Shown: in pieces, positions 44,999 to 64,000 of the stretch | Layout: each line of letters opens with the position of its first letter | How positions within the stretch are numbered: position 1 is the first letter of the stretch | Source: Echinicola rosea | GTDB taxonomy: Bacteria; Bacteroidota; Bacteroidia; Cytophagales; Cyclobacteriaceae | Direction of reading: 5' to 3' | DNA: 64,000 nucleotides | Assembly (NCBI RefSeq): GCF_005281475.1 | Contig: NZ_CP040106.1 | Location: 5,446,001-5,510,000, forward strand | The notes under the pieces: model-generated | Told to the model about the DNA's origin: nothing | Database searches by the model: none | What the model saw: the letters and a program-made list of their open reading frames with translations, nothing else | Position numbers and translations under genes: made by a program

Positions 44999-45056
44999 TT
45001 CAACAGCCCCTGTTCCAAGGGACTGTCCATATATTTAAACCCATAAACTTACTACA

Positions 45057-46828: not shown

Positions 46829-47734
46829 TCATGTCATCTTCCCGGTGAGGTAATCCACGGCTTTCTGTGCCTTTCCGGCAGCTTCCACCAACAGCCGCTT
46901 GTCGTTTTTAAGCTGGGACAGCCAATGCTGGATATAGGCAGAGGAATTATCCTGAAGGTCGTTCTCCCAGATACCGCACAGGTTGCCCAGGTAGCTTGCG
47001 CCCATCTCGGCGATAAGTTCTTCGCGGGCATAAAGGGTCCCATCCATATTGGACGTGTCCCATAGCTCCTTTCGGTCCAGTCTTTTTTGGTGGCCCGTTC
47101 CGTGGACGACTTCATGGTAAAGGGTCTGGTAATAATGCCCTTCACTTCGGAACAGCTCCTTTTTGGGCATGTTGATGTAGTCCTTTCCCGGATGGTAATA
47201 GGCCTGCGCTTCCCCGTGCCTGATCCCGGGAAGGTCCGGGGCTTTTTCCAACAGCTCCTCGCAGGCTTTTATCGGTTGGAAAGGTTTTTCCATGACGGTT
47301 TCGGGGAGGTCCCATTCCACGCCTTCCACTTCTCCTATATGGAAGACATTGTAATACTTCAGGAAGGCGCGCCTGTCCACCAGATCCTTGGGCAGTTTCC
47401 CGGCCTCTTCCCAGGACAGCTTTTTACCTGTTTCTTTGTGACGGTACATTACGTTCCAATATACGACAGGAATGGATCTGGATCCCTTTTTCACCTTCCC
47501 TCCCAGGCTTTCGGCCTGTTTGAAGGTCAGGTAATAGGGTTCGGCATGGCCACAGCTCAACAGCAGCCAGAGGTTGATGCCCCTGTAGGTTTTGCCGGAC
47601 CGGTAGTTTTTGGGCAGTCCCATGACCGACCAGGGCTGTTTCCAAGGGACAACGCCCTTTTCAAGGCCGGCCATGATCCTTTCGTTGACGATCTGGTAAA
47701 CATCTTTTCGGGAATTTTTGCTTTGTCGCTTCAT
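46829..47734 (-). CDS. ArdC-like antirestriction protein (ssDNA-binding and zincin domains)
   Basis: A 301-aa protein of the family found on conjugative plasmids and transposons. The ArdC N-terminal ssDNA-binding domain covers about 8-135 (DVYQIVNERIMAGLEKGVVPW, NYRSGKTYRGINLWLL, YWNVMYRHKETGK). A zinc-metalloprotease-like domain covers about 160-290, with H207-E208-x-x-H211 in YHEVVHGTGH and a downstream REELIAEMGASYLG helix supplying a Glu ligand. Full-length for the family. It is thought to protect incoming DNA from restriction. No other transfer gene is nearby except a truncated ATPase fragment, so it is probably left over from an integrated element. Confidence 0.88.
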   Translation of the reverse strand: MKRQSKNSRKDVYQIVNERIMAGLEKGVVPWKQPWSVMGLPKNYRSGKTYRGINLWLLLSCGHAEPYYLTFKQAESLGGKVKKGSRSIPVVYWNVMYRHKETGKKLSWEEAGKLPKDLVDRRAFLKYYNVFHIGEVEGVEWDLPETVMEKPFQPIKACEELLEKAPDLPGIRHGEAQAYYHPGKDYINMPKKELFRSEGHYYQTLYHEVVHGTGHQKRLDRKELWDTSNMDGTLYAREELIAEMGASYLGNLCGIWENDLQDNSSAYIQHWLSQLKNDKRLLVEAAGKAQKAVDYLTGKMT

Positions 47735-48333: not shown

Positions 48334-50397
48334 TTAAAGCACTCCCATTTTATCATATCCATATGGTAACTTATCTAAAATGGCAAAAGTCACCATACAG
48401 TTTTGGTATTTATTAGCATAGGGAATGGTAATGGTCACCTCATTCATGCCTTTTTCCAAGGACAGTTTATAAGGTTCTCTACGCCAGTATAGTTCTTCTT
48501 GTGCCCAGGAAACTTCTTGGTCCTGTTTGCTCCCCCATCCTTCAATTTTCGAAGGATGCCAGCCGGGGTTTTCCCACTCCGGGGCTGGCAAGGCCTCACC
48601 ATTCACCCATATTTTTCCTCCTTGAACATCCCAGTTGCCTTTTTCGGGAATGCCTCCATAGGTTCTATTGGCCCTTAGGGGTGTTTCAAAAGCAATCCAA
48701 GCCAGCACCTCTCGTTTGTCCTCGCTGAAAACGGAAGTTTTGGCTACCACTGTTTCACCTTTCTGTATGCCAGGGAAATAACCTCCCTGCTGGAATCTAT
48801 CTCGAATGATGATGGTATTTCCCCTGCCCTGAAGGAATTCACCACCTTCACTTATCCATTTGTCGATCGGTCCAATATCGGTCATGGGTTGATCTATCGG
48901 TCCATAAAGCTTCCATGAACGATCATTCTGTCGAAGGTAGGGAAAAGACTTATGCTCGAAAAACCGGTTTTTATGGTCTAAAAGGTAATCTTCAAATATA
49001 TTAAAATAGTCAGCGGCATCGGTATCGCCTGGAGGAAGTGTAACCATATATTCAGCAGGTGCCCCCAAAACATCAGCTGTCCAAGTGGCCCATGCATAGG
49101 TCAGCAGCCCGGGATAAACGGGGTTATTAAGGTACACTTCCTTCTGGTCAGCTACATTGACATCATGCCATAGACATAGTATTCCTCCAAGACAATCATT
49201 TTGGCTCATGGTAGCACCAATGGGCTTGAACAGTAACTTGTTCACAAATGTCATGGGTTCTGCGTTATTGATATAACTGTTACGGGAATCAATCTCCAAA
49301 AAACGGTGGTCTTTTGCCTTAACAGTATCCATCTCTCCCCAAGACTGCCGTAAGACGGAAGGAGACGCAGGAAGCCCGGGGCTCCACATCATGGCCTTTC
49401 TACCATTGGACTCCACTACTGCAACCATCCGCTCCATAAACTCCTTTGGATTTGGCACATGGACCTCATCGGAACCAATGTGGATAATAGGAGCTAGTTC
49501 TTTCGGGATTTCTGAAAAGAATTCCGTCAAAATCACCTTCAAAGCGTCCATACCTTGTTCTGACTCCATCCGGAAGCCCATCGCCTTGGTAAAGGAATCA
49601 CTGTGCCCTGGCATATCTATTTCGGGGATTACTTGGATTTTTCGCTCTTTGGCATAGACTATCAGTTCTCTGATTTCACTATATGTATAATAGCGTCCTG
49701 GATCCCTTCCTTTTCTATGGTTTTCTGCTGCGGTCAGCTGGGGAAAGGCCTTACTTTCTATCCGCCACGCAGGCCTATCGGTCAAGTGCCAGTGAAACAC
49801 ATTCATTTTATAATCAGACATGATATCAAGTTGCTTTTTCAACAGATCTAGCTCCTGATAGTTTCTTCCTACATCAACCATGAACCCGCGAACGGGAAAT
49901 TGGGGCTTATCAACTATTTTGACCTTTGGTATATAATGGACACCCTTTTCTTGAATGATCAATTGGCGAAGTGTTTTCATCCCATAATAAAAGCCTTCTT
50001 CAGTACTTGACTGAACAGTCACTCCATGCTGAGTAATCAATAGATTATAGGCCTCCTTATCCATTTCTGGTATTTCCTCCAATTTAATGGCCAAGCTGTG
50101 CTTTTCGGATGAGGAGAAGCCTTTTTCTCTGACGATGTCTTGGCACTCGTTCTGTAAAGACGCTATGATTTTTGTTTCTCCTTGCAATTTCAAGCCATCA
50201 ATCATGACTCTTCCGCCATCTTCCCACACGATCGAGTCAGGATAAGGTATCAATCTCACAGGGGCTTCCCTAAGTTCCCGTATCGTTTTTTTGGTTACAA
50301 ACCTTTCATTAAGGTCACTTTTCTGCCCCAAAACCTGAAAGTGATTCCCTGTAAAAAGGAGTATTAAAAAGGTAATTAAAAGAGACTTGGTCATCAT
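48334..50397 (-). CDS. Beta-N-acetylhexosaminidase, GH20
   Basis: A 687-aa exported exo-hexosaminidase (signal peptide about 5-24) that removes terminal GlcNAc or GalNAc. The GH20b-like N-domain covers about 45-160. The TIM barrel starts VRGFMVDVGRNYQELDLL (169-186, substrate Arg170). Later blocks are FHWHLTDRPAWRIES (201-215), EIDMPGHSD (259-267) and the catalytic pair Asp310-Glu311 in HIGSDEV. A C-terminal extension of about 200 residues includes a carbohydrate-binding-like beta-sandwich. It is the last gene of the sialoglycan operon, where it would act after sialidase has removed the cap (inference). It starts 5 nt after the sialate esterase stop. Confidence 0.92.
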   Translation of the reverse strand: MMTKSLLITFLILLFTGNHFQVLGQKSDLNERFVTKKTIRELREAPVRLIPYPDSIVWEDGGRVMIDGLKLQGETKIIASLQNECQDIVREKGFSSSEKHSLAIKLEEIPEMDKEAYNLLITQHGVTVQSSTEEGFYYGMKTLRQLIIQEKGVHYIPKVKIVDKPQFPVRGFMVDVGRNYQELDLLKKQLDIMSDYKMNVFHWHLTDRPAWRIESKAFPQLTAAENHRKGRDPGRYYTYSEIRELIVYAKERKIQVIPEIDMPGHSDSFTKAMGFRMESEQGMDALKVILTEFFSEIPKELAPIIHIGSDEVHVPNPKEFMERMVAVVESNGRKAMMWSPGLPASPSVLRQSWGEMDTVKAKDHRFLEIDSRNSYINNAEPMTFVNKLLFKPIGATMSQNDCLGGILCLWHDVNVADQKEVYLNNPVYPGLLTYAWATWTADVLGAPAEYMVTLPPGDTDAADYFNIFEDYLLDHKNRFFEHKSFPYLRQNDRSWKLYGPIDQPMTDIGPIDKWISEGGEFLQGRGNTIIIRDRFQQGGYFPGIQKGETVVAKTSVFSEDKREVLAWIAFETPLRANRTYGGIPEKGNWDVQGGKIWVNGEALPAPEWENPGWHPSKIEGWGSKQDQEVSWAQEELYWRREPYKLSLEKGMNEVTITIPYANKYQNCMVTFAILDKLPYGYDKMGVL

Positions 50398-50401
50398 TAG
50401 C

Positions 50402-52507
50402 TTATTTTAGTTGCTCATTTCTTTTTGATGGTACTTGTATTGACGAAGTACCCATTGGCATTCCAGACGTGTTGGATAAATTCGCCCTGGTAAAGGGTTC
50501 GTATGCATACCTTATTTCCTTCACATGAAAGTCCCTTGGTATAGTTAGCTTTACTTGATCACCAGTTATATTTCCAAGGACTGAAACCGACTGTCCCTTC
50601 CCGTTGACCAATTCAAACCCCATCACTTTTTCTCCATTAAGCGTGCATAGCCCCTCCCCGTGGTCAAAACTTACGAAAATCGCCTCCTGTCCGCATTCCA
50701 CTGAACTCATTTTAGGGGCATCGGCCAATACTTCCATACCATAGGTTTGGGAGAGTGCTTTTAGGGCCAAGCGTTCACCTACTTTCTTCTTATTTGCAGG
50801 ATGTACATCGAGGGAATCTCCCAAGTCCACAGTGACCACCATTTCTGAAAACGAAAGCTCTTGGGCTATTTCCTGCTGCATTTTCCTGAAGTTGGGCCAA
50901 GAGGGCCTGGCCATCCCGGGAAGCTGAACGTACACTATGGGAAGGGATGGATTGTGCCACTTTTGCCTGTAATCCCTGACCATCAGAAAAAACAATCTTT
51001 TGTACAAATCAGGATTATGGGTATTACTTTCCCCTTGGTACCATAGCATTCCCTTGACACCAAAAGGAATGATATTGCTCAATGCCGCATCATAAATATA
51101 GGAAGGTTGATAAGGGTGTCGTTTTCGATTGGAGAATTTATTACTCATATTTACCGTTGCCCTTTCCCTTACCCATGGCATGATATAATCAGAATTTGCC
51201 CAATTCTCTAACAGATTGACCAACAGTGGATCTTCCCAAAGTGCCTTTTTATCCACAAAGGCTTCGATCGGGGCTCCTCCCAAACTTAATTGTACAAGGC
51301 CTATAGGCACGTTAAGCTGACCTTGGACAGATACTCCAAAATGAAAGGCGACTGCGGAAAAGCCTTTTCTTTCAACATTCCAGTCCCCCTTAAAATAGGC
51401 GAGCCCATTGACCTTTTCAAGGGTTAGGCTATCCCATGGGCTGTTATCCGTTGCCTTTATTGCATGGAATTTAAAAAGTCTAATGTTATTGTTTTTTAGC
51501 TGTCTTCCTTCCTCTCCCCAAGACTGGGAAGCTTGCAGAGGGAAATCCATATTGGATTGGCCCATACACAACCATACATCCCCCACCAATACATCTTTCA
51601 AGGTAATGCACTGTTTGGAATGGTTGATTTCCATATCAAATGGCCCTCCCGTTTTGACTCCCGTAAGGTATAGCATCCATTTACCATGTCGATCCACTGT
51701 GGCATGTCTTCTTTTGCCTTGAAAATCTACCGTCACCACCTGATCTGGATTCCCCTTTCCAAAAACAGGAATGCTATCTCCTCGCTGAAGGACCATACCA
51801 TCACCAAATAATTCCGGCATGTGCAATCCTCCAAAATCTTTCAAGAGGTAAGAATAAACGGTTTTCGCCATTAATGCCGCTCCTTCTTTTACGGGGTGGA
51901 TATTGTCAGGAAATAAGTCCGGACGTTTTACTAGCGGGGCAAATAGGTCTATCAACTGTACCTCATTTGCACGGGCCACCTTTACCATCTTGTTATTGAT
52001 GGCCTGATGCCAACGGTGAGTTCCTGACTTGAAGCGCGGATGGCCACTAAAAATAGGGCTTAGCAGAGCTACATAGATTTCAATATTTGGGTTTATCTTC
52101 CTGAATTGTGCTATTAGCCAAGCATAATCAGCTTCGAAAGCAAGCCCATAATCAGGCCAATTCCTCGGGTCTGTATCGTTTAATCCCAAATTGATGACCG
52201 CTATATCCGGCTTATACTTCAATGCACTGTCAAATTCTTCGGTCAAATAATAAGGGCGGTGCCCTTTACGCAGCAGCGTGGCCCCACTGTGACCATAATT
52301 TTTAACTTCATATCCCTCTCCCAATAGCGCTTGGAGCTTGGCGGGGTAAGAAAAAACACTCCTTTTCGGAATCCCCAGACCATAAGTAACTGAATTGCCT
52401 ATACAAGCCACCTTGATTTTAGTTTGACCATTTACATTGATCAGGATCAAAAACAATAGCATCGAAAGTATTGTTGCCCTTGCTGTTCGGTTCTCCAAGG
52501 TATTCAT
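50402..52507 (-). CDS. nanS: Tandem SGNH hydrolase / sialate O-acetylesterase
   Basis: A 701-aa exported protein with two SGNH-fold parts. The ATG at 52507 is chosen over a GTG at 52516; the signal peptide is about 12-28. Domain 1 (about 31-220) is GDSL-like: Ser39 in IGNSVTYG, LGLNDTDP, and a terminal Asp-His pair in DNIHPVKEG. Domain 2 (about 225-640) is the sialate O-acetylesterase/SASA type, with LCMGQSNMDFPL holding the nucleophile Ser and MLWYQGESNTHNP in the second block. Removal of O-acetyl groups lets sialidase and lyase act on acetylated sialic acids (family knowledge). The symbol rests on operon context. Confidence 0.88.
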   Translation of the reverse strand: MNTLENRTARATILSMLLFLILINVNGQTKIKVACIGNSVTYGLGIPKRSVFSYPAKLQALLGEGYEVKNYGHSGATLLRKGHRPYYLTEEFDSALKYKPDIAVINLGLNDTDPRNWPDYGLAFEADYAWLIAQFRKINPNIEIYVALLSPIFSGHPRFKSGTHRWHQAINNKMVKVARANEVQLIDLFAPLVKRPDLFPDNIHPVKEGAALMAKTVYSYLLKDFGGLHMPELFGDGMVLQRGDSIPVFGKGNPDQVVTVDFQGKRRHATVDRHGKWMLYLTGVKTGGPFDMEINHSKQCITLKDVLVGDVWLCMGQSNMDFPLQASQSWGEEGRQLKNNNIRLFKFHAIKATDNSPWDSLTLEKVNGLAYFKGDWNVERKGFSAVAFHFGVSVQGQLNVPIGLVQLSLGGAPIEAFVDKKALWEDPLLVNLLENWANSDYIMPWVRERATVNMSNKFSNRKRHPYQPSYIYDAALSNIIPFGVKGMLWYQGESNTHNPDLYKRLFFLMVRDYRQKWHNPSLPIVYVQLPGMARPSWPNFRKMQQEIAQELSFSEMVVTVDLGDSLDVHPANKKKVGERLALKALSQTYGMEVLADAPKMSSVECGQEAIFVSFDHGEGLCTLNGEKVMGFELVNGKGQSVSVLGNITGDQVKLTIPRDFHVKEIRYAYEPFTRANLSNTSGMPMGTSSIQVPSKRNEQLK

Positions 52508-52522
52508 TCTTTCCACTTGTTC

Positions 52523-53287
52523 TTATTGATAAATATCCATTGGGTTTACCTTATCCAATTCAGTCAGAAACTCCATGGTTCTATCGGTCAAAACATCCAA
52601 AAAACGTTCACCTTTCTTGGAAGAGGCCTTTTGCGGATTGCCAACTCCTGTATCTTCGCTTACTTTCCCCCAATTCCTGGGCGTCCATACCAACTTACTT
52701 TTCAGGCCTCCTAACTTAAATCCCGTCGTTTTCCCTTCACCTGCTTCTTCCAAGGGCAAAACCAGCTCTGGGTAGCAAAACTGCATGATGCTGGTTTCCA
52801 TTTCCCCTGCATGGTCACCGGGCTCATCAAAATAATCTTCATTATTTAGTACTTTAAACCAGTCTATTACTCCAATAAAACAATGTTTAAATTGGATCTG
52901 AAGCTCCCTGATGATCGGTTTAAATTCATTGCCCCCGTGACTGTTGACAATGACCAATTTGTGAATTTTTTGACGATCCAGTGACCCAAGGATATCCTGC
53001 AATATAGCCAACTGGGTAGTTGGTCTCGTATGAATACAAAAAGGATAATCGATCTGCCCCGGATTTTGCACACCCAAAGGAATGGAGGGAAGTACCATAC
53101 ATTTGACCCCATTCCTTTGGGCCTTAGAGGCGGCCATTTCTGCAATTTTTTCAGATTGAAGGGTATCCGTCCCATAAGGTAAGTGATAGTTGTGCGGTTC
53201 TGTGGCTCCCCAGGGCAGTAGGGCAACTGTAAACTTTTCTTCCTTGACCGTTTTCCAATTGGATTGGTTCAATATGTATTTTTTCAT
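52523..53287 (-). CDS. Creatininase-family amidohydrolase
   Basis: A 254-aa cytosolic metal-dependent amidohydrolase fold. Binuclear-metal ligands are visible: Glu30, His35 and Asp41 in LPWGATEPHNYHLPYGTD, His in NSHGGNEF, and Glu in DHAGEMETS. Length is normal for the family, whose members open cyclic amides or hydrolyse formamide or amide bonds. It is embedded between the 2-epimerase (70 nt) and sialate esterase genes of a sialic acid operon, where no standard pathway step needs it. A role on a modified amino sugar, lactam or N-acyl group is a guess. No signal peptide, so it would act after import. Confidence 0.88.
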   Translation of the reverse strand: MKKYILNQSNWKTVKEEKFTVALLPWGATEPHNYHLPYGTDTLQSEKIAEMAASKAQRNGVKCMVLPSIPLGVQNPGQIDYPFCIHTRPTTQLAILQDILGSLDRQKIHKLVIVNSHGGNEFKPIIRELQIQFKHCFIGVIDWFKVLNNEDYFDEPGDHAGEMETSIMQFCYPELVLPLEEAGEGKTTGFKLGGLKSKLVWTPRNWGKVSEDTGVGNPQKASSKKGERFLDVLTDRTMEFLTELDKVNPMDIYQ

Positions 53288-53357
53288 TGTTTATTTGCTT
53301 TGATCAATGATCCCCACTACACCTATCGGCTAGCTTTTCTGACATGGCTAAAATGTC

Positions 53358-54536
53358 CTATTTATCTATCCCACTTTCCATGGTCTTCCAGACCTGATAA
53401 AGTGCCCGCGGAACGTGAAAACAGCCTTTCCATTTTCCTCCTTTGAGATCGAGCAGTACATCTCCACTTCTGTTCAAATACCCGAACCACTCCCCTTCTT
53501 TGGCATCATAAAAATTCCCCCAAGCATATTGGTGTACCTTTTCAAACCACTCCCAACATCGCTTGTTCCCGGTCATTCGGTATCCTTTTGCCAATGCCAC
53601 CAGTGTTTCCAAATGTACCCACCAAAGCTTTTGGTCCCATTCCAGTTGCTGAGGGGGATGACCTTTATGATCCAAGAAATAAAATATCCCTCCGTACTCG
53701 TTGTCCCAGCCATTTTCCAGCTGCCTTATCATTACCGTTACGGCTTTGTCGGCAAGGGATTGGTCTCCCCGTCTTTTTGCTATATCCATCATAAACCACA
53801 TAGCTTCTATAGCGTGCCCGGGATTGAGCAAACGGCCTTCAAAGCTGTCGGAATACCCATTGTTCAATGTCCTGTTTTCGAACATCAACAAAGAGTCCTG
53901 ATCGAGAAAATTCACCATGACCTCTTGCACACAAGTGTCCAGAAGTCCTTCTACCAAACCATTATCCAGTAAGGGCTCCATTTCCAAACAGAGATTGCTA
54001 AGAATCATGGGCAAAGCAAAGTTCTTCAAGGGCCGGGTTCCGGGATAGGATTTGTTGTATCTTCCTTTAGGGTTTTCCTGACGATCCAAAATCCGTTGGA
54101 AAATACCCACGGCTTTGCTACCTAGTTCCTCATTTTGTGAAATCTGTCCATATTTCGCAAAGGCCATTGCCACGAAACAATCTGAGAAGATATTATATGG
54201 CTGTACCAATGGACTTCCCTTTTGTGTCAGGGAAAAGTAATAGTCACCGCTACGGTCACTACCATGTTTTGTTAGAAACTCGATACCAAGTCTGGACATG
54301 GCCAACCATTCCTCCCTTTTATCCACTTCTTGATAGAGTAGGCTAAACATCCAGGCTTGTCTTCCTTGGAGCCATACGAACTTATCGGTATCAAATACCT
54401 TCCCCTTTCTGTCCAAACAGGTAAAATAGCCCCCGTTTTCCCAGTCAGGGGAGTTTCGTTCCCAAAAGGGGATGACATTTTCCAAAAGTGCAGCCTTATA
54501 CTGCTGGCTATAATCACGAATCTTATTTTGGTCCAT
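53358..54536 (-). CDS. N-acylglucosamine 2-epimerase (AGE/RnBP family)
   Basis: A 392-aa cytosolic (alpha/alpha)6-barrel enzyme. In sialic acid pathways it interconverts ManNAc and GlcNAc, replacing the NanK/NanE route. The start is the ATG at 54536; the longer frame begins with TTG. Family blocks include VIPFWERNSPDWENGGYFTC near the N-terminus, KFVWLQGRQAWMFSLLY, YNIFSDCFVAMAFAKY, LLNPGHAIEAMWFMMD (with the active-site His) and WWVHLETLVALAKGYRM. The operon supplies its substrate via NanA. Related family members act on cellobiose or mannose, but the context supports ManNAc. Confidence 0.88.
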   Translation of the reverse strand: MDQNKIRDYSQQYKAALLENVIPFWERNSPDWENGGYFTCLDRKGKVFDTDKFVWLQGRQAWMFSLLYQEVDKREEWLAMSRLGIEFLTKHGSDRSGDYYFSLTQKGSPLVQPYNIFSDCFVAMAFAKYGQISQNEELGSKAVGIFQRILDRQENPKGRYNKSYPGTRPLKNFALPMILSNLCLEMEPLLDNGLVEGLLDTCVQEVMVNFLDQDSLLMFENRTLNNGYSDSFEGRLLNPGHAIEAMWFMMDIAKRRGDQSLADKAVTVMIRQLENGWDNEYGGIFYFLDHKGHPPQQLEWDQKLWWVHLETLVALAKGYRMTGNKRCWEWFEKVHQYAWGNFYDAKEGEWFGYLNRSGDVLLDLKGGKWKGCFHVPRALYQVWKTMESGIDK

Positions 54537-54583
54537 GGTATGCGATGGTATATTTTCTTTATTAGGCAATCTATTTGATATGA

Positions 54584-56116
54584 TTATTTAAAATACTGCA
54601 AGTACTTCCACCTAAAAGTGGAATCTTTAGCATAGGAGTGGTTAGGGAAATGCCTGTTCACTGAATCCACTTCGGCTACAAATCGATCTAAAATACCCTT
54701 GTCATAGAATGGATCATCAGTTTCTTGTTGCCACTTGACCAAGGCTCCAATCATTTCACCTTTTATGGAGACATATTGCGGATTGCCTATTAAGTTCCTG
54801 AACTCATATGGATCTTCCTGTAGGTCATAAAGCTCATATTCGGGTGGATTTTTCCATGTGGCGTAAGCTGCCCTGACCTCATCGGTGCCTTGCATAAGCT
54901 CTCCCTCCTCAGTCCCACCGTCAAAATGCCCATTTAAATGATCAGCATAAAATGAATACTTTGGGTTTTCTCTTGTATACAAAAGGTTATGGATCAGTTT
55001 ATAGCGGTCGTTTCTTACACTTCTTCTCGGGTAAAAAAACAAAGAAGTAGCACCTGCACCTCCGGCAAAAACATACTCTCTCCACTTCCCTTCTGAGCCT
55101 TGGCCCAATAGTGGCAATAACGATCTCCCATCCAAGGAATCGGGGCATTTAGCTCCGGTAATATCCATGATAGTGGGGACAATATCGATGGAAGACACCA
55201 GCTCCTTCCGCATACCAACATGAGGATTTCGGGGTGGATAGCGAATGATCAATGGCACTCTCAGACCCGCTTCATAGTTAGAGCACTTTGCTCTAGAAAA
55301 TTGGGGTCCATGATCTCCCATGTAAATCACCACTGTATTTTCCAATAACTTTTCCTCCTCCAGTTTCTTCAGCAACAATCCCACAGCGATATCCAGACGG
55401 GCCATGCTGTTATAGTAGTTTGCAGTGTACTCTCGTAATCTTCTACTGTCCACACCAATAAAGGGCAGCGTGCCAGTTACATCATCTGCATCCAAAGGCT
55501 GTGGAGGTAATCCATCCACTTGTTTTTGAAGTGGGAAATGGGCATCGGGAAAATTGACCATTAGAAAAAAAGGCTTTCCAGCATCCATTTGGATAAATTC
55601 CAAGGCACTTTCAGCGTATTTTTCCAATTGCACTTTTTCAAAATTGGCACCCTTGATGGCTCCGTAATCCCACTTGAAAGAAGTAGCAGGGTTCACATGC
55701 CGTTTACCGATAATCCCAGTACGGTATCCTACATCATGTAAATACCCCGGGAGGGTCTTCAATGAATCATACATCTGATAATGATGAGTGGCCAATCCAA
55801 TCTGTCCATTTTGGTGAGGATATAATCCTGTAAACAGGGTCGAACGAGATGGACTACAGACCGAATAGGTAACAAATGCATTGTCAAACCTTACACCTGT
55901 TTCAGCAAGCTGGTCAATATTGGGTGTGGAAACATCCTGATTACCGTAACAACCTAGTTCAGGTCCATTATCCTCTGATACGACAAAAAGGACATTCATT
56001 TTTTCCTTTGCTCCGGATCCATTTTTCGCACCTTTATCACATGATGTCAGAAGCAGCACGGCCAATAACCAGCCCCATAGAAAAACACTATTTTCTATTT
56101 CAATGGCTTTTATCAT
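54584..56116 (-). CDS. Type I sulfatase lipoprotein (S1 family)
   Basis: A 510-aa formylglycine-dependent sulfatase. The lipobox Cys is residue 26 (LLLTSC). The N-terminal metal site is VVSEDNGPELG (Asp49, Asn50). The maturation motif is Cys87-Ser-Pro-Ser-Arg91 in SVCSPSRSTLFTG, so Cys87 becomes formylglycine through a maturase encoded elsewhere. The second metal block is YMGDHGPQF (about 265-273). The C-terminal subdomain has ELYDLQEDPYEFRNL. The layout is like heparan N-sulfatase/N-sulfoglucosamine hydrolases. It overlaps the sialidase gene by 4 nt (ATGA), so both act together, suggesting a sulfated sialoglycan target (inference). Confidence 0.9.
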   Translation of the reverse strand: MIKAIEIENSVFLWGWLLAVLLLTSCDKGAKNGSGAKEKMNVLFVVSEDNGPELGCYGNQDVSTPNIDQLAETGVRFDNAFVTYSVCSPSRSTLFTGLYPHQNGQIGLATHHYQMYDSLKTLPGYLHDVGYRTGIIGKRHVNPATSFKWDYGAIKGANFEKVQLEKYAESALEFIQMDAGKPFFLMVNFPDAHFPLQKQVDGLPPQPLDADDVTGTLPFIGVDSRRLREYTANYYNSMARLDIAVGLLLKKLEEEKLLENTVVIYMGDHGPQFSRAKCSNYEAGLRVPLIIRYPPRNPHVGMRKELVSSIDIVPTIMDITGAKCPDSLDGRSLLPLLGQGSEGKWREYVFAGGAGATSLFFYPRRSVRNDRYKLIHNLLYTRENPKYSFYADHLNGHFDGGTEEGELMQGTDEVRAAYATWKNPPEYELYDLQEDPYEFRNLIGNPQYVSIKGEMIGALVKWQQETDDPFYDKGILDRFVAEVDSVNRHFPNHSYAKDSTFRWKYLQYFK

Positions 56117-57672
56117 GGGACCAAGTCGGTAATTGGTATGATCTGGTAGGTCATATGTGCCTGGCTGCTTTCGTACAGGATACCCAGATAATCCTCATCT
56201 ATTACGGTTAGGCAGGAATAGCCCCATCCTTTCCCTTCATCCAGTAACAGTCCGCTAGACCAAGACACTCCTTCATCCTGACTGGATTTAATGGTCATAT
56301 CATACCTACCGTCAGAGACAGCTGGATTGGAAAAAAACAAATGCGAAGCATCCATGGATTGCCTGTTTTCAGGATAAGTAATGAGACTTGCCATACAAAC
56401 TGGCTCGACCAAGGCAGACCTGCTTGAGGGATGTTCCTGCCATGTTTTCCCAAGGTCCTTGGTGACGGCTACCGACCGTGCCCCACCCCTGTTGTCCCTC
56501 ATGTTCAGCATCAGGCTTCCGTTATTGAGCTCGACCACTTGCGCCTCTGTAGTGTTTGACTTGGCTCCAGTACCGATATGCCATGTTTCCCCCTTGTCCT
56601 GACTGTAAATCACCGTACTATGAGGCATGTCATTTTCATCTTTAAACTGTCCAGCAAAGACCAATGTCCCATCCCTCATCGTAATACCTTTTCCTGGCCC
56701 GTTGAACATGAGTTTCCATTCCTTCTTTTTGAGCTGTGCAGTGATATTGATGGGAGCCGACCATGTTTTCCCATCATCTTTGCTCTTGACCATCACCAGC
56801 TGTCCAGTTTCATCTGGGGAAATCCCCTTACCCGAGCTGAGCCATGCTCTTTTCCCCGGTTTTCCATGTAGCCAAAGTGCGACCACATAGATCGTGTTGT
56901 CACTTGGATCCACCAGAATGGCGGGATCCCCAATCCCATTTTCCTTCTGGGGTTTTCCGCCCCACTCCTCCATATCCATGATGATTTTCATTGGCTCCCA
57001 GTTTTCCCCTCCATCAGTGCTCCTGCTCATTCCTACATCAATATCCTCCTGAAGATCCACCGAACTATTGTGCCGCACATCGTACACAGCGATCAAACTA
57101 CCTTCAGTGGTGGTCGCCAATCCGGGAATCCTATAAGCCGCTATCCCATCATCGCCTGCAGTCCTTAGGCTGGTTGCCAAACGCATTGGCATCGAGTTGA
57201 CTTGCTTTGAAAGAGCAGCATTGGACCTGGTAAACGTTATATCTTTTAAGCCAATTTGCAGCGTTTCTTTTAAAGATGCGTTTTCCTTGGGCTGAATGCC
57301 GAGCACCAATTTATGTGAACCAGGTGAAAAGGGCCTGTCCACATCAATCAATACTTTTTTACCTACCTTTACCAGCGCCGCTAGGGGTTGCCGTTTATCA
57401 CCTGCGGCATTTTCCAATTCATGGATCGTTAGTGACTCCAAAATCTCTGCCCCCTCAATAGCCAATGACAATTCCTCCAGTACATCCCCTTCCTTTAGGG
57501 TAAATTCCATAGAAAGCACATCGTTATTTTGCCCTTTGATTACCGGATACGTGTGCTGGTTTACCGTTACCTGTACCTGGGCAGCAGTCCCGGTTGGCCG
57601 TGAAGTACAACTGCCCATCATGATCAATAAGCTTCCCAATAAGAATGCGTGCATTTTGTTGAATGTTATCAT
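56113..57672 (-). CDS. nanH: Exo-alpha-sialidase lipoprotein, GH33
   Basis: A 519-aa sialidase. The ATG at 57672 is chosen over an in-frame TTG two codons earlier. Lipobox Cys22 (IMMGSC). An N-terminal beta-sandwich of about 140 residues precedes the six-bladed propeller. The propeller contains the RIP motif (AYRIPGL, about 179-185). Five Asp-boxes are visible: SRSTDGGENWEP, KSKDDGKTWSAP, YSQDKGETWHIG, VTKDLGKTWQEH, SSQDEGVSWSSG. GIGDPAIL contains the probable acid/base Asp region, and ILYESSQ near the C-terminus holds the nucleophile Tyr. It releases terminal sialic acid outside the cell for uptake by the downstream fused transporter. Confidence 0.94.
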   Translation of the reverse strand: MITFNKMHAFLLGSLLIMMGSCTSRPTGTAAQVQVTVNQHTYPVIKGQNNDVLSMEFTLKEGDVLEELSLAIEGAEILESLTIHELENAAGDKRQPLAALVKVGKKVLIDVDRPFSPGSHKLVLGIQPKENASLKETLQIGLKDITFTRSNAALSKQVNSMPMRLATSLRTAGDDGIAAYRIPGLATTTEGSLIAVYDVRHNSSVDLQEDIDVGMSRSTDGGENWEPMKIIMDMEEWGGKPQKENGIGDPAILVDPSDNTIYVVALWLHGKPGKRAWLSSGKGISPDETGQLVMVKSKDDGKTWSAPINITAQLKKKEWKLMFNGPGKGITMRDGTLVFAGQFKDENDMPHSTVIYSQDKGETWHIGTGAKSNTTEAQVVELNNGSLMLNMRDNRGGARSVAVTKDLGKTWQEHPSSRSALVEPVCMASLITYPENRQSMDASHLFFSNPAVSDGRYDMTIKSSQDEGVSWSSGLLLDEGKGWGYSCLTVIDEDYLGILYESSQAHMTYQIIPITDLVP

Positions 57673-57690
57673 CTCCAATATTTTTCTTAA

Positions 57691-60402
57691 TTAAGCTTTT
57701 TCCAATGTTTTATTTTCCTGTTCCCCCTTCTTATTCCCCAATGAATGGATCGTTAAGCCATCGATATCCCGCTTATCGGTAAAGAAGAAACTACCTATAT
57801 AGGTCATCCCCATGGCACTTACCAGACCGGTCAGGGCATACAAGTGAATACTAAGGTCCGAACCGTATTTTACGGCCACCTGCACCAATGCACTGCACAA
57901 TAGTCCAAGCAATGCGCCCTTCCCATTGACGCTATCCGACAGCATTCCGATCAGAAAGATGCCACCCAAGCCTCCAGCAAAAAGTCCTATGATCATATTG
58001 AACTGGTCCCAAAGTGACGGGAGTCCCAAACTGGCCATCACCAGAGCAAAACCTGTCCCAAAAACCCCAACAATAACGGTTACCCACCGGGCAAATCCCA
58101 GGGTGTTTTTACCGGTGGTATCTTTGGGAAACCACTTCTGGTAAAAATCTGTGGTCACCACTGTGGCCACCGAATTCATGCTACTGTCCAGACTGGACAT
58201 CGCTGCCGCAAAAACTGCGGCAATCAACAACCCGGAAATACCTGTGGGGAGTTGGGTCACAATATAAAAGGGAAAAATACTATCGGTATTTTGGACTGCT
58301 GGGCTAAGCTCTGCAGGGTGCAATTTGTAAAACAGATAAAGTGCCGTCCCCATACTAAAGAAGATCAGGGCTGAGGGTAGTGCCATCAATGCACCAGTAG
58401 CAATCCCGTTAGCTGCCGCCTTCTCATCCTTGGTGGTCAAGTACCGTTGGACCACGGTCTGGTCACTGCCATACTGTACGATATTTGCCGCTATCCCCCC
58501 GATGAGTACTACCCAAAAGCTGGTACCCGTAAAATCCATCCGCATGTCAAAGATCTTTCCTTTTTGGTTTTCCATGACTATGGACATTAATTCGGCTGGA
58601 CTTTCATGGATTTCATAAAAAACAAAACCTAGACATATCAATGCACCACCAAGGAGTACGACCACCTGGATCACATCCGTCCAGATCACTGCTTCGATGC
58701 CACCCAGGACGGTGTATACAATACTCAAAAGTCCCATGATCAAGATACACATAGAGACATCTATCCCAGTCACCACAGTCAGTGCCAGGGACGGAAGGAG
58801 TAATACGATTCCAAGTCTTCCCAGCTGAAGCCCCACATAGATCAAGCTACCGATCAGCCGTACCGATCGGTTATACCTCAATTCCAAATATTCGTAGGCT
58901 GTAGTGATATTCAACCTTCTAAAGAATGGCAGAAATACACCTATGATTATGGGAGCGACAATGATAATGGTCATCAATAAAAAAAACAGGGTCCAGTCTG
59001 TGGCAAAGGTCTTGGCCGGTATGGCCATAAAAGTAATCGCGCTAAGCTGAGTGCCGAATATACTGATGCCAGCCGCCCACCATGGAACCCTTCCACTAGC
59101 CTTAAAAAAGTCCTCAGTGGAATGCTGCTTTCCAGAAATCAAAACCCCCATCAATACCAAGGATCCCAAATAGAGTCCCAAAACGGTATAGTTGACCCAG
59201 CCAAAAGCGCCTTCTTTTTTGAATCCCACTCCATGGATGGATGCGGTCCGCACCCCCGGAGAGATCTCCCCTGATGGCAATATCACCTCCCCGCCCCATG
59301 GTACGGCCGTAGTAGTAACAGGGACCGTGAATGGAAGCCTGCCCATGGTATGCCAACTGTCCGTTATGGTATGATAGACCTGGATATCCCTGTCGAAGCC
59401 AGGATGGTTTTCCATCAAGATGTCCCGTTTTTGTATAAGCTCTTGCCGGGCCAAGGTATCTACAACCTCAGAAAGGGCTGCCGCATACCGCTCGAGTTCA
59501 TTGAAGGTATCTCCACTGACACCACCATAAAACACGATTTGGCCTGCCCCCTGTGCTGCGGCAGTTCCTGCCGATAATGTAAGGGGGGTTCCTTGCTCGT
59601 CCTGTATACTGCTTATTTTTTTCCAACCCTCCTTTTGAGGGTCATAACAGAAGGCATCTGCATACAACTCACTTACACCAGTTTCCTGTAATCGCCGTCC
59701 ACCAAATAAATAAAAACAATCGTTCATCCCATTGTTCTGGACAGCAGAAACGGCATGTGAACGTGGTTTTCCAGGCCATGACGGCAACCTCTCCCAACGC
59801 AGCTTATCTTGATCAAGATCCATACGGAAAAAAGCATCGGAAACCATCTCTCCTTCTCCACCTGCCAGGTACGCGCTAGCCCCTACTAACCCTCCAGTGG
59901 AATTGCTAAGGGCTAAGGGCAAATCAGGCAGGTATTGTAATTCCACTTGCCGTATTACGGGGTCCCACTTCAGTAGAAAAACTTTTTTGAATGTAGCGTT
60001 TTGGTTATTGCCACCGATGCACAAAAGCCCTTTTGGTGTGCTAATACTGGTACCATAGGCGACTGGAAAGGGCAACTTCAGGTCCAGTCCTTCTACCCAA
60101 CGATATCCCCCAGGTGATTTTTCCAAAACGTAAACATGCTGTGAGAAGTGTTTCGTTCCTCCTTTCCACGGTGCTTTGTCTGGAAAATTGGCACCACCTG
60201 CCAAGATCAACACATCCTCGTGCACACCGGCAAACATGCCCGCATACCCTAAGGACACACTGTCTCCCACAGCTGCCGGCATGTCCGGTAGGGCCTCAAA
60301 GGTAAAACTCCCTAGATAGTTATCGAAAAGACCTTGTCCAAGGACGACTTTTCCGAAGAATGTAAAAAACAAGATACTGGCAATATAGGTTATAGCTCTC
60401 AT
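57691..60402 (-). CDS. Fusion: N-acetylneuraminate epimerase (NanM, Kelch) + sodium:solute symporter
   Basis: A single 903-aa protein. After a signal-like N-terminus (1-22), a Kelch six-bladed propeller covers about 25-395 (LPDMPAAVGDSVSLGYAGMF, LLCIGGNNQNATF, DCFYLFGGRR, QIVFYGGVSG), matching NanM mutarotases. From about 400 to 885 there are about 13 hydrophobic segments with SSS-family motifs: DFFKASGRVPWWAAGISIFG, TAYEYLELRYN, VYTVLGGIEAVIWTDVIQ, and IAAVFAAAMSSLDSSMNSVA near the sodium site. The fusion couples alpha/beta anomer conversion in the periplasm to sodium-driven sialic acid import (inference). It lies 38 nt after nanA and 18 nt before nanH. Confidence 0.93.
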   Translation of the reverse strand: MRAITYIASILFFTFFGKVVLGQGLFDNYLGSFTFEALPDMPAAVGDSVSLGYAGMFAGVHEDVLILAGGANFPDKAPWKGGTKHFSQHVYVLEKSPGGYRWVEGLDLKLPFPVAYGTSISTPKGLLCIGGNNQNATFKKVFLLKWDPVIRQVELQYLPDLPLALSNSTGGLVGASAYLAGGEGEMVSDAFFRMDLDQDKLRWERLPSWPGKPRSHAVSAVQNNGMNDCFYLFGGRRLQETGVSELYADAFCYDPQKEGWKKISSIQDEQGTPLTLSAGTAAAQGAGQIVFYGGVSGDTFNELERYAAALSEVVDTLARQELIQKRDILMENHPGFDRDIQVYHTITDSWHTMGRLPFTVPVTTTAVPWGGEVILPSGEISPGVRTASIHGVGFKKEGAFGWVNYTVLGLYLGSLVLMGVLISGKQHSTEDFFKASGRVPWWAAGISIFGTQLSAITFMAIPAKTFATDWTLFFLLMTIIIVAPIIIGVFLPFFRRLNITTAYEYLELRYNRSVRLIGSLIYVGLQLGRLGIVLLLPSLALTVVTGIDVSMCILIMGLLSIVYTVLGGIEAVIWTDVIQVVVLLGGALICLGFVFYEIHESPAELMSIVMENQKGKIFDMRMDFTGTSFWVVLIGGIAANIVQYGSDQTVVQRYLTTKDEKAAANGIATGALMALPSALIFFSMGTALYLFYKLHPAELSPAVQNTDSIFPFYIVTQLPTGISGLLIAAVFAAAMSSLDSSMNSVATVVTTDFYQKWFPKDTTGKNTLGFARWVTVIVGVFGTGFALVMASLGLPSLWDQFNMIIGLFAGGLGGIFLIGMLSDSVNGKGALLGLLCSALVQVAVKYGSDLSIHLYALTGLVSAMGMTYIGSFFFTDKRDIDGLTIHSLGNKKGEQENKTLEKA

Positions 60403-60440
60403 GGATGGATGTTTAATTTACAATGGGAATTTGGCTTGTC

Positions 60441-61370
60441 CTATTGTCCCTGCTTTGCGTGACTACTCCACTGGAAAAAGCCCTGTTGATCGAGATCCTT
60501 TTCCAATTTCATATAATCATTCTTGTCCAGCTGTTGTACGGGATAGCGGAATTGGCCACAGTCAAGACCACATAGTTTCATAATAGCCTTTCCGCAGGCC
60601 GCACCACCATAATGAGCAAATAGGCTGATCAGGTCAATGGACTTTTCTTGCCAATGTCTGGCCGCTTCCATATCCTGCTTATGAAAAGCCTCTATAAGGT
60701 TCTGGTAAAGTGGTGCAGCATAATTATAGGTGCTGCCTACTGCCCCTTTTGCTCCCATGGACAACCCTGCCAGCATGGTCTCATCCCAACCCCAAAGAAT
60801 ATCATATTTACCAGCTTGGTAGCGCAGACATTTGTTAAACTCCATTAGGTCATTGTGCGTGTATTTGATCCCAGCAAAGTTGGGGATTCTTCTCCCCGCC
60901 TCTTCCAAAAAGTCCACCATTGGAAGTTCCACTTTGGAAAGCAAAGGGATATGGTAAAAATAAAATGCCTGATCGGGTGCCGCTGCGGCAATTGGCTCAT
61001 AATAGTCCACCAATTGCTTCACCGAATTGGGCCGCATGTAATAAGGAGCCGTAAGCGCAATCCCGTATAGGCCTAACTCATGGGCCTTCTTTGCCAAAGA
61101 GACGGCTTCTTTCTGGTTGGTCCCTCCCAACATGGCCATCACTTTAAATTGGGGGGAGGAAAAAGGTGCCCATGCCTCAAACAACGATATTTTTTCGTCA
61201 TGGGTCATGGCTGCACCTTCTCCAGTAGTGCCAGCAATAAAAACCCCTGCCATACGATTAGCACTTAAAGAGCGTGCGAGAATAGGGATTTTACGCTCAT
61301 CAAGGGATCCGTTTTCGCAAAATGGTGTAAAAGTGGCCGCAATTAGGCCGTTTATTTTCTTGAACTTCAT
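60441..61370 (-). CDS. nanA: N-acetylneuraminate lyase
   Basis: A 309-aa class I aldolase cleaving N-acetylneuraminate to ManNAc and pyruvate in the cytosol. Signatures: FIAGTTGEGAAMTHDEK (44-60, the carboxylate-binding Thr-Thr-Gly), Tyr139 in FYFYHIP, and Schiff-base Lys169 in FAGIKYTHND. The IKYTHND block and GTTGEG favour the sialic acid lyase branch over DapA. It stands between susD and the NanM-symporter fusion; a strong hairpin at 61385-61412 separates it from susD. Normal length for the family. Confidence 0.94.
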   Translation of the reverse strand: MKFKKINGLIAATFTPFCENGSLDERKIPILARSLSANRMAGVFIAGTTGEGAAMTHDEKISLFEAWAPFSSPQFKVMAMLGGTNQKEAVSLAKKAHELGLYGIALTAPYYMRPNSVKQLVDYYEPIAAAAPDQAFYFYHIPLLSKVELPMVDFLEEAGRRIPNFAGIKYTHNDLMEFNKCLRYQAGKYDILWGWDETMLAGLSMGAKGAVGSTYNYAAPLYQNLIEAFHKQDMEAARHWQEKSIDLISLFAHYGGAACGKAIMKLCGLDCGQFRYPVQQLDKNDYMKLEKDLDQQGFFQWSSHAKQGQ

Positions 61371-61384
61371 GGTTGCTTTTTTAT

Positions 61385-61412
61385 GGACAGGAAGGCAGTT
61401 GCCTTCCTGTCC
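61385..61412 (-). promoter_or_regulatory. Intercistronic hairpin between susD and nanA
   Basis: GGACAGGAAGGCA (61385-61397) and TGCCTTCCTGTCC (61400-61412) form a perfect 13-bp inverted repeat with a 2-nt centre. On the minus strand no T-tract follows (AAAAAA instead), so it is more likely an RNA-stability or processing structure than a full terminator. It begins 8 nt after the susD stop and ends 15 nt before the nanA start. Confidence 0.65.
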
Positions 61413-61420
61413 CCTAACAA

Positions 61421-62914
61421 TTAATTTCCGTATCCTGGATTTTGGGTGATTTTAGAATTGAGACTTATGGTGTTCAACGAGATAGGCCATAAGGTCAAGT
61501 ATTGCTCATTTTCTCTACCTTGGAGGGAGGGTACCAGCTCAAATTCCTTGTCAAACCTCACGAGATCCCACCACCTCTTTCCTTCAAAGGACAGTTCCAA
61601 CAGCCGTTCCTCCAATATGGCCTCATCATTGGCAAGCTGCCCCATGTCCACAAAACGGTGATCTTCAAAGTCCTCTCCATAAGCCCTTAGCCTCACCTTA
61701 TTCATCTCTTCTGATGGATCCATTCCCAAGGCATTTTTTGCCTCGGCGATCATTAACAACAAGTCCGCATAGCGGTACAATACCACATCATCTAAAAACC
61801 TACGTCCAGAAGGGTCGATATATCCCCTTAATTTGGTCACTATATTCGCATAGGGTTCCATTTGTCCATCTTCATTGGGAATGGAAATACTGAGGAAGGT
61901 GGCGTTTTTACGTTGGTCTCCATTGGTATAAGCTGAGGTGACCACTGGCGAAGGGCCCCAACGATTCAATCCACCACCTTGGCCAATTTGGTCAATAACT
62001 TCCGGGTCTGCCCCTGCCGGGATTTGGTCGTCCCTTATGTACATGCCACTGTTGTAGTTTGTCCCGGATTCCAGGTCCCTAAAATGCACGGCCATCAATA
62101 TTTCATTGTTGCCTTTGTTATCATAACGGAAGATATCATCATAATTAGGCAGAAGGTCCAATTCAGCAATATCTGCCTCTTGGAGGGCCTCCAGCGCTGT
62201 CTGCAAATCGGTATTTCCACCGTCCAGCTGCTTGGCCGTCCAAAGGTAAACATCCCCCTTAAGGGCGTTTGCAGCGGGTTTGCTCCACGATACTTTTCCA
62301 GCAGCCAATGAATTATCTGGATAAAGTGATAAGGCCGTATTAAGGTCTTCCTTTACCTGCGCAAATACTGCGTCTACCGAGGAACGCTCCCTAAAAGTCG
62401 TTTCGGCATCATATCCTTCTGTTGGGCTGGTCACCAGTGGGATCCCTCCCCAGGTTTTGGCCATGGTAAAGTAGGCGAACGCCCGCATGGTATAGGCTTC
62501 TGCAAGCATTCTGTTTTTGTCTGCCTCATTGGTAAACCCAATTCCAGGGACATATTCGATCAGAAGATTAGCATCGTGCACCACGGTATACATCCGCAGC
62601 CAGTCTGGGCCGGCAAAATTGGGATCAACCGTATTTTCAAAATACCTTTCCAAGCCCTCGGAAGCCTGAAGTCCATAGGTCAACGTTCCGCTACGTCCCT
62701 CTCCCCAAGTAAAGAGGTTGCTGGCTGACTGGTCTCTAAAGCGCACGTACATCCCGTTAAGCGCACCCTTGGCGTTATCCTCTGTGGTCCAAAACCCGGC
62801 AACAGTGATTTCACTCGTTGGGGTAAGTTCCAAATTCCCCGTACATGAGACTACCGCCAAAAGAACGCCCAAGCATGCCGCTACTTGTATTAATTTATGC
62901 TTTATATTTTTCAT
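61421..62914 (-). CDS. SusD/RagB-family lipoprotein of the sialoglycan operon
   Basis: A surface glycan-binding lipoprotein of 497 aa from the ATG at 62914, chosen because it gives a clean signal peptide ending AVVSC (lipobox Cys23). An ATG at 62944 overlaps the susC stop. SusD features: the N-terminal block LELTPTSEITVAGFWTTEDN, the helical segment AEAYTMRAFAYFTMAKTWGG (about 145-164), and the C-terminal block EERLLELSFEGKRWWDLVRF, ending QNPGYGN. It pairs with the SusC upstream. Its ligand is inferred from the operon to be a sialylated glycan. Confidence 0.93.
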   Translation of the reverse strand: MKNIKHKLIQVAACLGVLLAVVSCTGNLELTPTSEITVAGFWTTEDNAKGALNGMYVRFRDQSASNLFTWGEGRSGTLTYGLQASEGLERYFENTVDPNFAGPDWLRMYTVVHDANLLIEYVPGIGFTNEADKNRMLAEAYTMRAFAYFTMAKTWGGIPLVTSPTEGYDAETTFRERSSVDAVFAQVKEDLNTALSLYPDNSLAAGKVSWSKPAANALKGDVYLWTAKQLDGGNTDLQTALEALQEADIAELDLLPNYDDIFRYDNKGNNEILMAVHFRDLESGTNYNSGMYIRDDQIPAGADPEVIDQIGQGGGLNRWGPSPVVTSAYTNGDQRKNATFLSISIPNEDGQMEPYANIVTKLRGYIDPSGRRFLDDVVLYRYADLLLMIAEAKNALGMDPSEEMNKVRLRAYGEDFEDHRFVDMGQLANDEAILEERLLELSFEGKRWWDLVRFDKEFELVPSLQGRENEQYLTLWPISLNTISLNSKITQNPGYGN

Positions 62915-62930
62915 GATTTTTCGTTTTGGG

Positions 62931-64000
62931 TTAAAAACTGACATTCACACCGAACAAAAAGCTTCGTGGAATGGGGTACCTTCCAGAATCCGTCCCACCT
63001 ACTTCAGGGTTCAGGCCGGTATACTGGGTAAAATAATATAGATTGGACCCTGTCATATAAGTCCTTACATTCCCGATTTTCAGGGCATTCACCCACTTTT
63101 TTGGTAGGGTATAGCTCAATGTCAACTCCCTTATGGCCAAGTAATCTCCCTTCTCATAGTAGAAGGTATTGCCACGGAATGAATTGTTTTGTGCCAATTG
63201 GTCTGCCCAATAATACCGTGATATATCGGTCACATCTCCCTGTTGCTGCCAGGAAGTAGTCGTTTCCTCCAATATCCCTATATCTCCCTGATACTGACCG
63301 TTAAACCTTGCTCTCGTTTCATGGTAAATAGTATGACCCAGTGCAAAATCAGTACGAATGGTGAGCGAAAGCCCCTTGTAGTTAAAGGTATTGGTAAATC
63401 CGCCCGTCCATTTGGGATAGATATTTCCTGCATATACCCTGTCTCTACTATCGATAGAGTCATTTGCGTCCAAGTCTGCCCAATTCACATCCCCTCCAAA
63501 TTTGCTTTTGTCTGTTCCCGGCACCAGTTCATCATAAGGTCCTTCTGCGGCCTCTTGGTCTGTTGCATACACACCAAGTTGTTGATAAGCAAACAAATCA
63601 CCGATATAACCACCTTCCTGCAAGCCTCCTTTCCAAGTGTATTGGCCGGTCACTTGATCATATACCAAGACACCACCTATCCGATTGTTCTCGTTATCAT
63701 TCTCTGGCAGCTCCACTACAGTATTAATGTTGTAGGAGGCGTTTGCAGAAACATTCCAGGCAAAATGCTGTTTTTGGATGATTGCTGCACCTACTTCCAT
63801 TTCTACCCCCTCATTTCGTAGGGAACCCAAATTGGTCAGGATGCTGCTAAAGCCAGTAGACTGTGGCAGTTCCAAATTGGTCAAAAGATTATCTGTCAAT
63901 CGGTTATAATAGTCAGCAATCAAGCTCACCCGGTCGTTGAACAATCCCAAATCCAACCCAATGTCAAATGTTCCTGATCGCTCCCATTGTAGGTCCTGAT
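62931..64000 (-). CDS. SusC/RagA-family TonB-dependent receptor, 5'-truncated by window
   Basis: The C-terminal part of a SusC receptor; the frame is open from the stop at 62931 to the window edge, about 356 codons. Barrel features are typical: LQWERSGTFDIGLDLGLF (close to the edge), LTNLELPQSTGFSSILTNLG, DRVYAGNIYPKWTGGFTNTF and the end SFLFGVNVSF. The N-terminal domains, and so the presence of an STN domain, lie outside. It is paired with the SusD that follows and is the outer-membrane importer of the sialoglycan operon. Confidence 0.93.
   Translation of the reverse strand, partial: QDLQWERSGTFDIGLDLGLFNDRVSLIADYYNRLTDNLLTNLELPQSTGFSSILTNLGSLRNEGVEMEVGAAIIQKQHFAWNVSANASYNINTVVELPENDNENNRIGGVLVYDQVTGQYTWKGGLQEGGYIGDLFAYQQLGVYATDQEAAEGPYDELVPGTDKSKFGGDVNWADLDANDSIDSRDRVYAGNIYPKWTGGFTNTFNYKGLSLTIRTDFALGHTIYHETRARFNGQYQGDIGILEETTTSWQQQGDVTDISRYYWADQLAQNNSFRGNTFYYEKGDYLAIRELTLSYTLPKKWVNALKIGNVRTYMTGSNLYYFTQYTGLNPEVGGTDSGRYPIPRSFLFGVNVSF

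Follow-up and report, generated by a model that had tools for sequence, protein, structure and literature searches.

A clade of sulfatases tied to nan-type loci: a candidate sialate O-sulfatase in the sialic-acid utilization locus of Echinicola rosea

The closest described relatives of the locus studied here are the sialic-acid systems of Bacteroides fragilis and Tannerella forsythia, with their NanOU pair and NanL-NanE-II-RokA route (PMC10017367; this and the other papers cited are drawn on in part). NanU of B. fragilis binds monomeric N-acetylneuraminic acid (Neu5Ac) (PMC10017367). We compare with these systems a ten-gene polysaccharide utilization locus (PUL) of E. rosea that runs from position 48334 to beyond position 64000, the end of the window, the whole 64,000-nucleotide stretch of contig NZ_CP040106.1 (positions 5,446,001 to 5,510,000) that was analysed. 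Like them, the locus joins a SusCD pair of the NanOU kind to a lyase, a non-phosphorylating N-acyl-D-glucosamine 2-epimerase (AGE), a sialidase and an esterase, with NagA and NagB encoded elsewhere. It differs in the fusion of its symporter to a NanM domain, in its hybrid two-component regulator, in its accessory sulfatase and creatininase-family genes, and in its marine host. As a NanOU-type sialic-acid PUL the locus is of a known kind, ordinary and well conserved in Echinicola; its unusual parts are the sulfatase and the creatininase-family gene, neither of which was singled out by the original prediction, made from the letters of the window alone.

The sulfatase gene (54584..56116, minus strand; PF00884, 169.7 bits) belongs to a clade that is tied to nan-type loci. 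Homologues were collected at E <= 1e-60 from 343 relatives (27 matches) and from 390 genomes of the phylum (11 matches), the E. rosea copy being counted in both sets, and the neighbourhoods of all these matches were read, four of them at the final recount. A nan context was assigned when a SusD (at least 38% identical) or a GH33/BNR protein (at least 25%) lay within 9 kb; these thresholds were fixed after the first loci had been seen, and several rows are near-copies of one another. All 12 copies at 42% identity or more, E. rosea's own included, had a SusD or GH33/BNR context so labelled; neither was present for the 26 rows of 40% identity or less (21 loci) or for four late rows. In the first tree the 12 context-bearing copies made up one side of a branch (support 99/98). 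A prediction on clade context, written before a search of 199 genomes from another family, held for seven of eight new homologues (L229 to L235); since one genome, G750, had been partly seen beforehand at the edge of locus L046, six of the seven successes were wholly new. The one miss, L236 (identity 40.4% over 468 amino acids or 42.2% over 434, according to the alignment), has no nan context and falls outside the clade on the tree, among the context-free homologues.

The final clade comprises 19 copies from 16 genomes, every one of which lies beside a NanU-like SusD (at least 38%), a GH33/BNR protein (at least 25%) or both. Such a context was found for none of 31 more distant homologues (26 loci). 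On the tree, which was restricted to homologues at E <= 1e-30 with at least 380 aligned residues, the 19 rows form one side of a branch against 27 others (96/93), and the SH-aLRT value is 95 in the 50-row tree that includes the four late rows. Context is distributed on the tree as a single change, a value reached by none of 500 shuffles, although near-copies inflate this result. Outside the tree stand the more distantly related sulfatases from nan loci L044, L045, L046, L047, L055, L057, L060 and L062, and the extra sulfatases of L105, L183, L229, L230, L233 and L235; L183, L230 and L188 lie on short contigs. A second search in a distant family (195 relatives of G224), run without a positive control, returned no sulfatase at E <= 1e-90.

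The link to sialidases extends to gene fusion. A single 882-residue open frame in locus L229 (genome G750) holds a sulfatase (Pfam residues 48-329) and a sialidase (540-847), the latter with a YRIPAL motif and Asp-boxes and with a bacterial sialidase as its best solved match. In L183 (genome G067), a 917-residue frame combines the sulfatase with a BNR domain (48.9 bits) in which REP replaces RIP. The two fusions are not sisters on the tree. Two other arrangements were noted among these loci: L233:5087-15265 is a nan locus in which six consecutive sulfatase genes adjoin NanA, a NanM-symporter and a sialidase, and three related proteins of 505-536 residues (57-62% identical, no Pfam match) adjoin the clade sulfatase at L184:12889-16108 and L200:4776-6368.

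The window sulfatase carries the formylglycine site CSPSR at residue 87. Positions D49, C87, R91, K138, H140, H193, D268 and K277, which we take from alignment with S1 sulfatases to be metal, substrate and catalytic positions, are kept in all 19 clade copies, and the clade-specific residues N142, P190 and A192 adjoin the aligned catalytic K138, H140 and H193. Its nearest solved relatives, with which it shares the catalytic residues in alignment as well as the CxPxR site, are human SGSH (4mhx, 198.7 bits) and then S1_8A/B (about 155-161 bits); these are distant relatives, and the subfamily was compared by solved structures. From SGSH and S1_8 the protein differs in its modest score (about 199 bits to SGSH only), in the three clade-specific residues, and in the location of its clade in nan-type rather than heparan loci. 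Assignment to the S1_11 class of mucin N-acetylglucosamine (GlcNAc)-6-sulfatases was rejected, since 5g2v (140.5 bits) and 7p24 (127.2 bits) rank behind SGSH and S1_8A/B; other nan loci (L055) do carry enzymes of that class next to sialidases, but their relation to the window sulfatase is distant only.

Given that the clade accompanies sialidase-like genes, and is sometimes fused to them, its members may remove sulfate from sialic acid. Sulfated sialic acids are found in sea urchins and vertebrates, and sulfotransferases are known (PMC9304399). The sea-urchin jelly coat contains N-glycolylneuraminic acid (Neu5Gc), the sulfated forms Neu5GcS and Neu5AcS, and many O-acetylated forms (PMC9630641), and these sulfated and O-acetylated sialic acids fit a set of sulfatase, esterases and sialidase. 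Constant partners (a sialidase-fold protein or a NanU-like SusD), fusion and sea-urchin chemistry together point to sialic acid itself as substrate, and we tentatively propose that the window sulfatase desulfates O-sulfated sialic acid. With equal reserve, it could be the first of a family of sialate O-sulfatases for O-sulfated sialic acids (e.g., those of sea-urchin gametes), acting with, or fused to, the sialidase of nan PULs. The authors of a 2023 review knew of no report of a microbial sulfatase that acts on sulfated sialic acid (PMC10017367, in the part drawn on). Beyond that review we found no description of a microbial enzyme that desulfates sialic acid, in a literature search that covered subscription journals poorly, and the word 'sialic' is absent from the part of PMC10154612 consulted. 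The clade is an extraordinary candidate within an ordinary PUL. Should it act on sulfated sialic acid, a missing enzyme would be named and a tool for glycan analysis gained, the use of such carbon by marine bacteria would be shown, and a marine sialic-acid cycle would become directly testable. The original prediction had found the source of sialic acid puzzling for what looked like a free-living polysaccharide degrader; this contrast is only partly apt, as the genus includes a sea-urchin isolate, E. pacifica (PMC8707317), and sea urchins bear sulfated (PMC9304399) and O-acetylated (PMC9630641) sialic acids.

Several observations weigh against sialic acid as the sulfated residue. The E. pacifica locus is without a clade sulfatase, which is present in only five of the nine Echinicola nan loci. 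A YRIP-type sialidase was not seen in seven of the 19 clade loci (L182, L183, L184, L199, L200, L230 and L232), where the YRIP motif fails as a test for every BNR partner; among these seven, a NanU-like SusD (47-53%) is present in six, and BNR proteins likewise in six. Furthermore, nan loci also harbour other kinds of sulfatase (23-31% identical), which makes sulfate on the underlying glycan possible.

It is quite possible, if short of probable, that the PUL serves sialic acid while its sulfatase acts on a galactose (Gal) or N-acetylhexosamine (HexNAc) sulfate of a sulfated sialoglycan. Mucin-type glycans carry sulfated Gal and HexNAc, and such sulfates would provide the substrate. More than one sulfatase is found in nan loci L105, L183, L229, L230, L233 and L235, and the sulfatase of L055 has the GlcNAc-6-sulfatases 7p24 and 5g2v as its closest matches (that of L045 gave no match in a PDB search at E <= 1e-60). 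The GH20 of the window and GH2-like open reading frames in L045 and L050, recognized by eye, likewise point to glycan trimming. The window clade, however, is not of the GlcNAc-6-sulfatase kind, SGSH and S1_8 being nearest among solved structures, and its sulfatase is the only one seen in the Echinicola loci. Across the clade its partner is a sialidase-fold protein or a NanU-like SusD, with no fixed galactosidase or hexosaminidase, and the fusion is to a sialidase.

We regard as unlikely that the wider clade serves a sialic-acid-like acidic sugar (another nonulosonic acid, or one resembling 3-deoxy-D-manno-octulosonic acid), with nan loci as one branch. Loci L182, L199, L200, L230 and L232 would suit such a role, since they pair a NanU-like SusD (48-53%) with Asp-box proteins that lack YRIP and, in the stretch read, show no NanA that reaches 40% identity; in its stead L182 carries a DHDPS-family gene and genes for deacylase-like, short-chain dehydrogenase/reductase (SDR) and pyridoxal-phosphate (PLP) enzymes, and in L184, which has a NanU-like SusD, Pfam recognised no sialidase-fold gene. 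Yet the copies nearest the window and a deep branch (L105, L233-L235) lie in loci that hold NanM together with a YRIP sialidase, and NanA as well in every case but L181. The PUL at L182:3150-15840, with its NanU-like SusD, four BNR proteins, clade sulfatase, GDSL esterase, AspA-like deacylase, SDR, PLP enzyme and DHDPS-family aldolase, may handle an acidic amino sugar by another route. Finally, we consider it most improbable that the cluster serves something other than sialic acid, with NanA and sialidase homologues that work on other keto-sugars: NanA does score below its equivalog cut-off, and seven DHDPS-family stretches occur in the genome, but a single operon holds NanU-like SusD, NanM, NanA, AGE, a strong GH33 and a SASA domain.

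The assignment of the locus to sialic acid, already made by the original prediction, is well supported by this NanU-like SusD, the strong GH33, an AGE above its cut-off and the solved relatives of NanA. All ten genes lie on the minus strand, as had been claimed, with intergenic distances of -14 to 70 bases, and the gene identities then proposed agree with the families assigned here from Pfam and NCBIfam profiles. The SusC/NanO-like TonB receptor is represented by its C-terminal part (62931..64000; TIGR04056, 275.7 bits on this part); the gene is cut by the window end, runs to 66191 in window numbering and is whole in the genome (L008:3932-7192, 1086 amino acids), which is one contig of 6.06 Mb. 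It is followed by the NanU-like SusD lipoprotein (61421..62944), whose best solved relative is NanU itself (4l7t, E 9.9e-65), and by NanA (60441..61370; DHDPS/NanA family), whose best solved relatives are the N-acetylneuraminate lyases 6h4e and 5afd. Next come the 903-residue fusion of a NanM-type Kelch mutarotase to a sodium:solute symporter (57691..60402; PF24996, 159.1 bits; PF00474, 169.6 bits) and the GH33 sialidase (56113..57678), which overlaps the sulfatase gene by 4 bases. The YRIP motif and Asp-boxes are marks of sialidases; the GH33 has YRIPGL and four Asp-boxes by pattern, and its best matches are nine Bacteroidota-type sialidase sequences, including 4bbw and 7qy9 (E <= 2.4e-136). 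Beyond the sulfatase lie the AGE of NanE-II type (53358..54569; NF052547, 635.6 bits against a cut-off of 600), the creatininase-family gene (52523..53287; PF02633, 185.6 bits), a tandem esterase with GDSL and SASA domains (50402..52516; PF13472, 98.7 bits; PF03629, 75.7 bits), whose solved relatives are sialate O-acetylesterases, and a 687-residue GH20 beta-hexosaminidase-like protein (48334..50397; PF00728, 147.9 bits; PF02838). The best PF00728 stretch of the latter spans profile positions 1-117 of 348, and its D-E pair aligns with solved GH20 proteins. By eye, N-termini are lipoprotein-like in SusD, GH33 and the sulfatase (LLTSC in the last) and signal-peptide-like in the NanM-symporter, GH20 and perhaps the esterase; none was seen in NanA, AGE and the creatininase-family protein.

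A search for the rest of the pathway, suggested by the original prediction, located NagA-like, NagB-like and ROK candidates outside the PUL; the NagA-like and NagB-like genes lie about 3 kb apart, with a symporter and a GH20-family gene in between. Genes of the FGE-sulfatase family in the genome are candidate maturases for the sulfatase. A number of scores tell against the sialic-acid reading: NanA is below its equivalog cut-offs (PRK04147, 158.9 against 281 bits; TIGR00683, 133.3 against 382), as are SusD in the NanU model (287.9 against 425), the NagA-like protein, by little (207.9 against 225.65), and the NagB-like protein of L011, by much (134.7 against 528). ROK-family proteins are present, but none of five scanned exceeded an equivalog cut-off and no kinase was singled out. 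The gene of L010 was rejected as NagB, being a 6-phosphogluconolactonase (202.4 bits against a cut-off of 124.45).

Overall, we think it quite probable that the locus is the nan PUL of Echinicola and works along the following pathway, in which activities and locations, and above all the substrate of the sulfatase, are predicted from gene order, families and motifs. The hybrid two-component regulator would control the PUL, and surface or periplasmic enzymes would trim a sulfated and O-acetylated sialoglycan: the sulfatase would strip sulfate, most likely from sialic acid itself, the two esterase domains O-acetyl groups, GH33 would free sialic acid, and GH20 would remove exposed HexNAc. The NanOU-like SusCD would then carry sialic acid over the outer membrane, and the periplasmic NanM domain would mutarotate it at the mouth of its fused symporter. 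Inside the cell, NanA would yield pyruvate and N-acetylmannosamine, which AGE would convert to GlcNAc, with a chromosomal ROK kinase, NagA and NagB completing catabolism. The creatininase-family protein might act in the cytoplasm, at a guess, as an amidohydrolase on an N-acyl intermediate.

The creatininase-family protein has the family fold, its nearest solved relative being 3lub (246.5 bits), an uncharacterised putative creatinine amidohydrolase. It is nevertheless not a true creatininase (TIGR04448, 60.4 bits against a cut-off of 235) and falls far below the MftE and IolN equivalog cut-offs too. A homologue occurs in 132 of 343 relatives, and a second genome copy lies beside a glutamine synthetase III-like gene (by eye). 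Despite this spread, a plain housekeeping role was dropped because the PUL copies of five Echinicola form their own branch (100/100); in all five the gene follows AGE, a place taken by a NagA-type gene in L231. Relatives adjoin the NanM-symporter in G067 (L058) and SASA in L229, so that the gene is found in such loci of three genera. The trees neither establish a single clade for all seven nan-linked copies nor firmly reject it (p-AU 0.054). A literature search on creatininase and sialic acid gave nothing on point, and the protein is probably a cytoplasmic amidohydrolase, the N-acyl intermediate as its substrate being a guess.

The NanM-symporter gene is present in eight of ten other Echinicola genomes (93% identity to the E. 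arenosa match). The order regulator, SusC, SusD, NanA, NanM-symporter, GH33 and then AGE is kept in all nine loci, E. rosea's included, in two of which the reading covered only part of the regulator. Besides the sulfatase, the accessory genes vary: the creatininase-family gene occurs in five of the nine and GH20 in four, in one of which it is only 34% identical. With E <= 1e-20 as threshold, the NanM part was matched in 21 of 118 relatives and in 29 of 395 phylum genomes, both counts including E. rosea; many matches are frames of 850-930 residues, so the NanM-symporter fusion is common. A literature search on this fusion gave nothing on point.

Upstream of SusC, beyond the window, lies the divergent gene of the 1416-residue regulator, with Reg_prop, Y_Y_Y, HisKA, HATPase, receiver and AraC-type domains. 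Of the two flanks of PUL and regulator (window 46829-47734 and L008:12188-14193), one carries an ArdC-type antirestriction gene and the other transposase remnants and a RadC-like gene, so the whole may sit in a genomic island. Past the regulator (L008:14538-19001), a GH2 exo-glucosaminidase-like gene is found together with a further SASA-domain protein. Window positions 44537-45962 hold, on the plus strand, genes for a cupin and for a second DHDPS-family protein beside a MocR-like regulator; this pair is apparently unrelated to the PUL.

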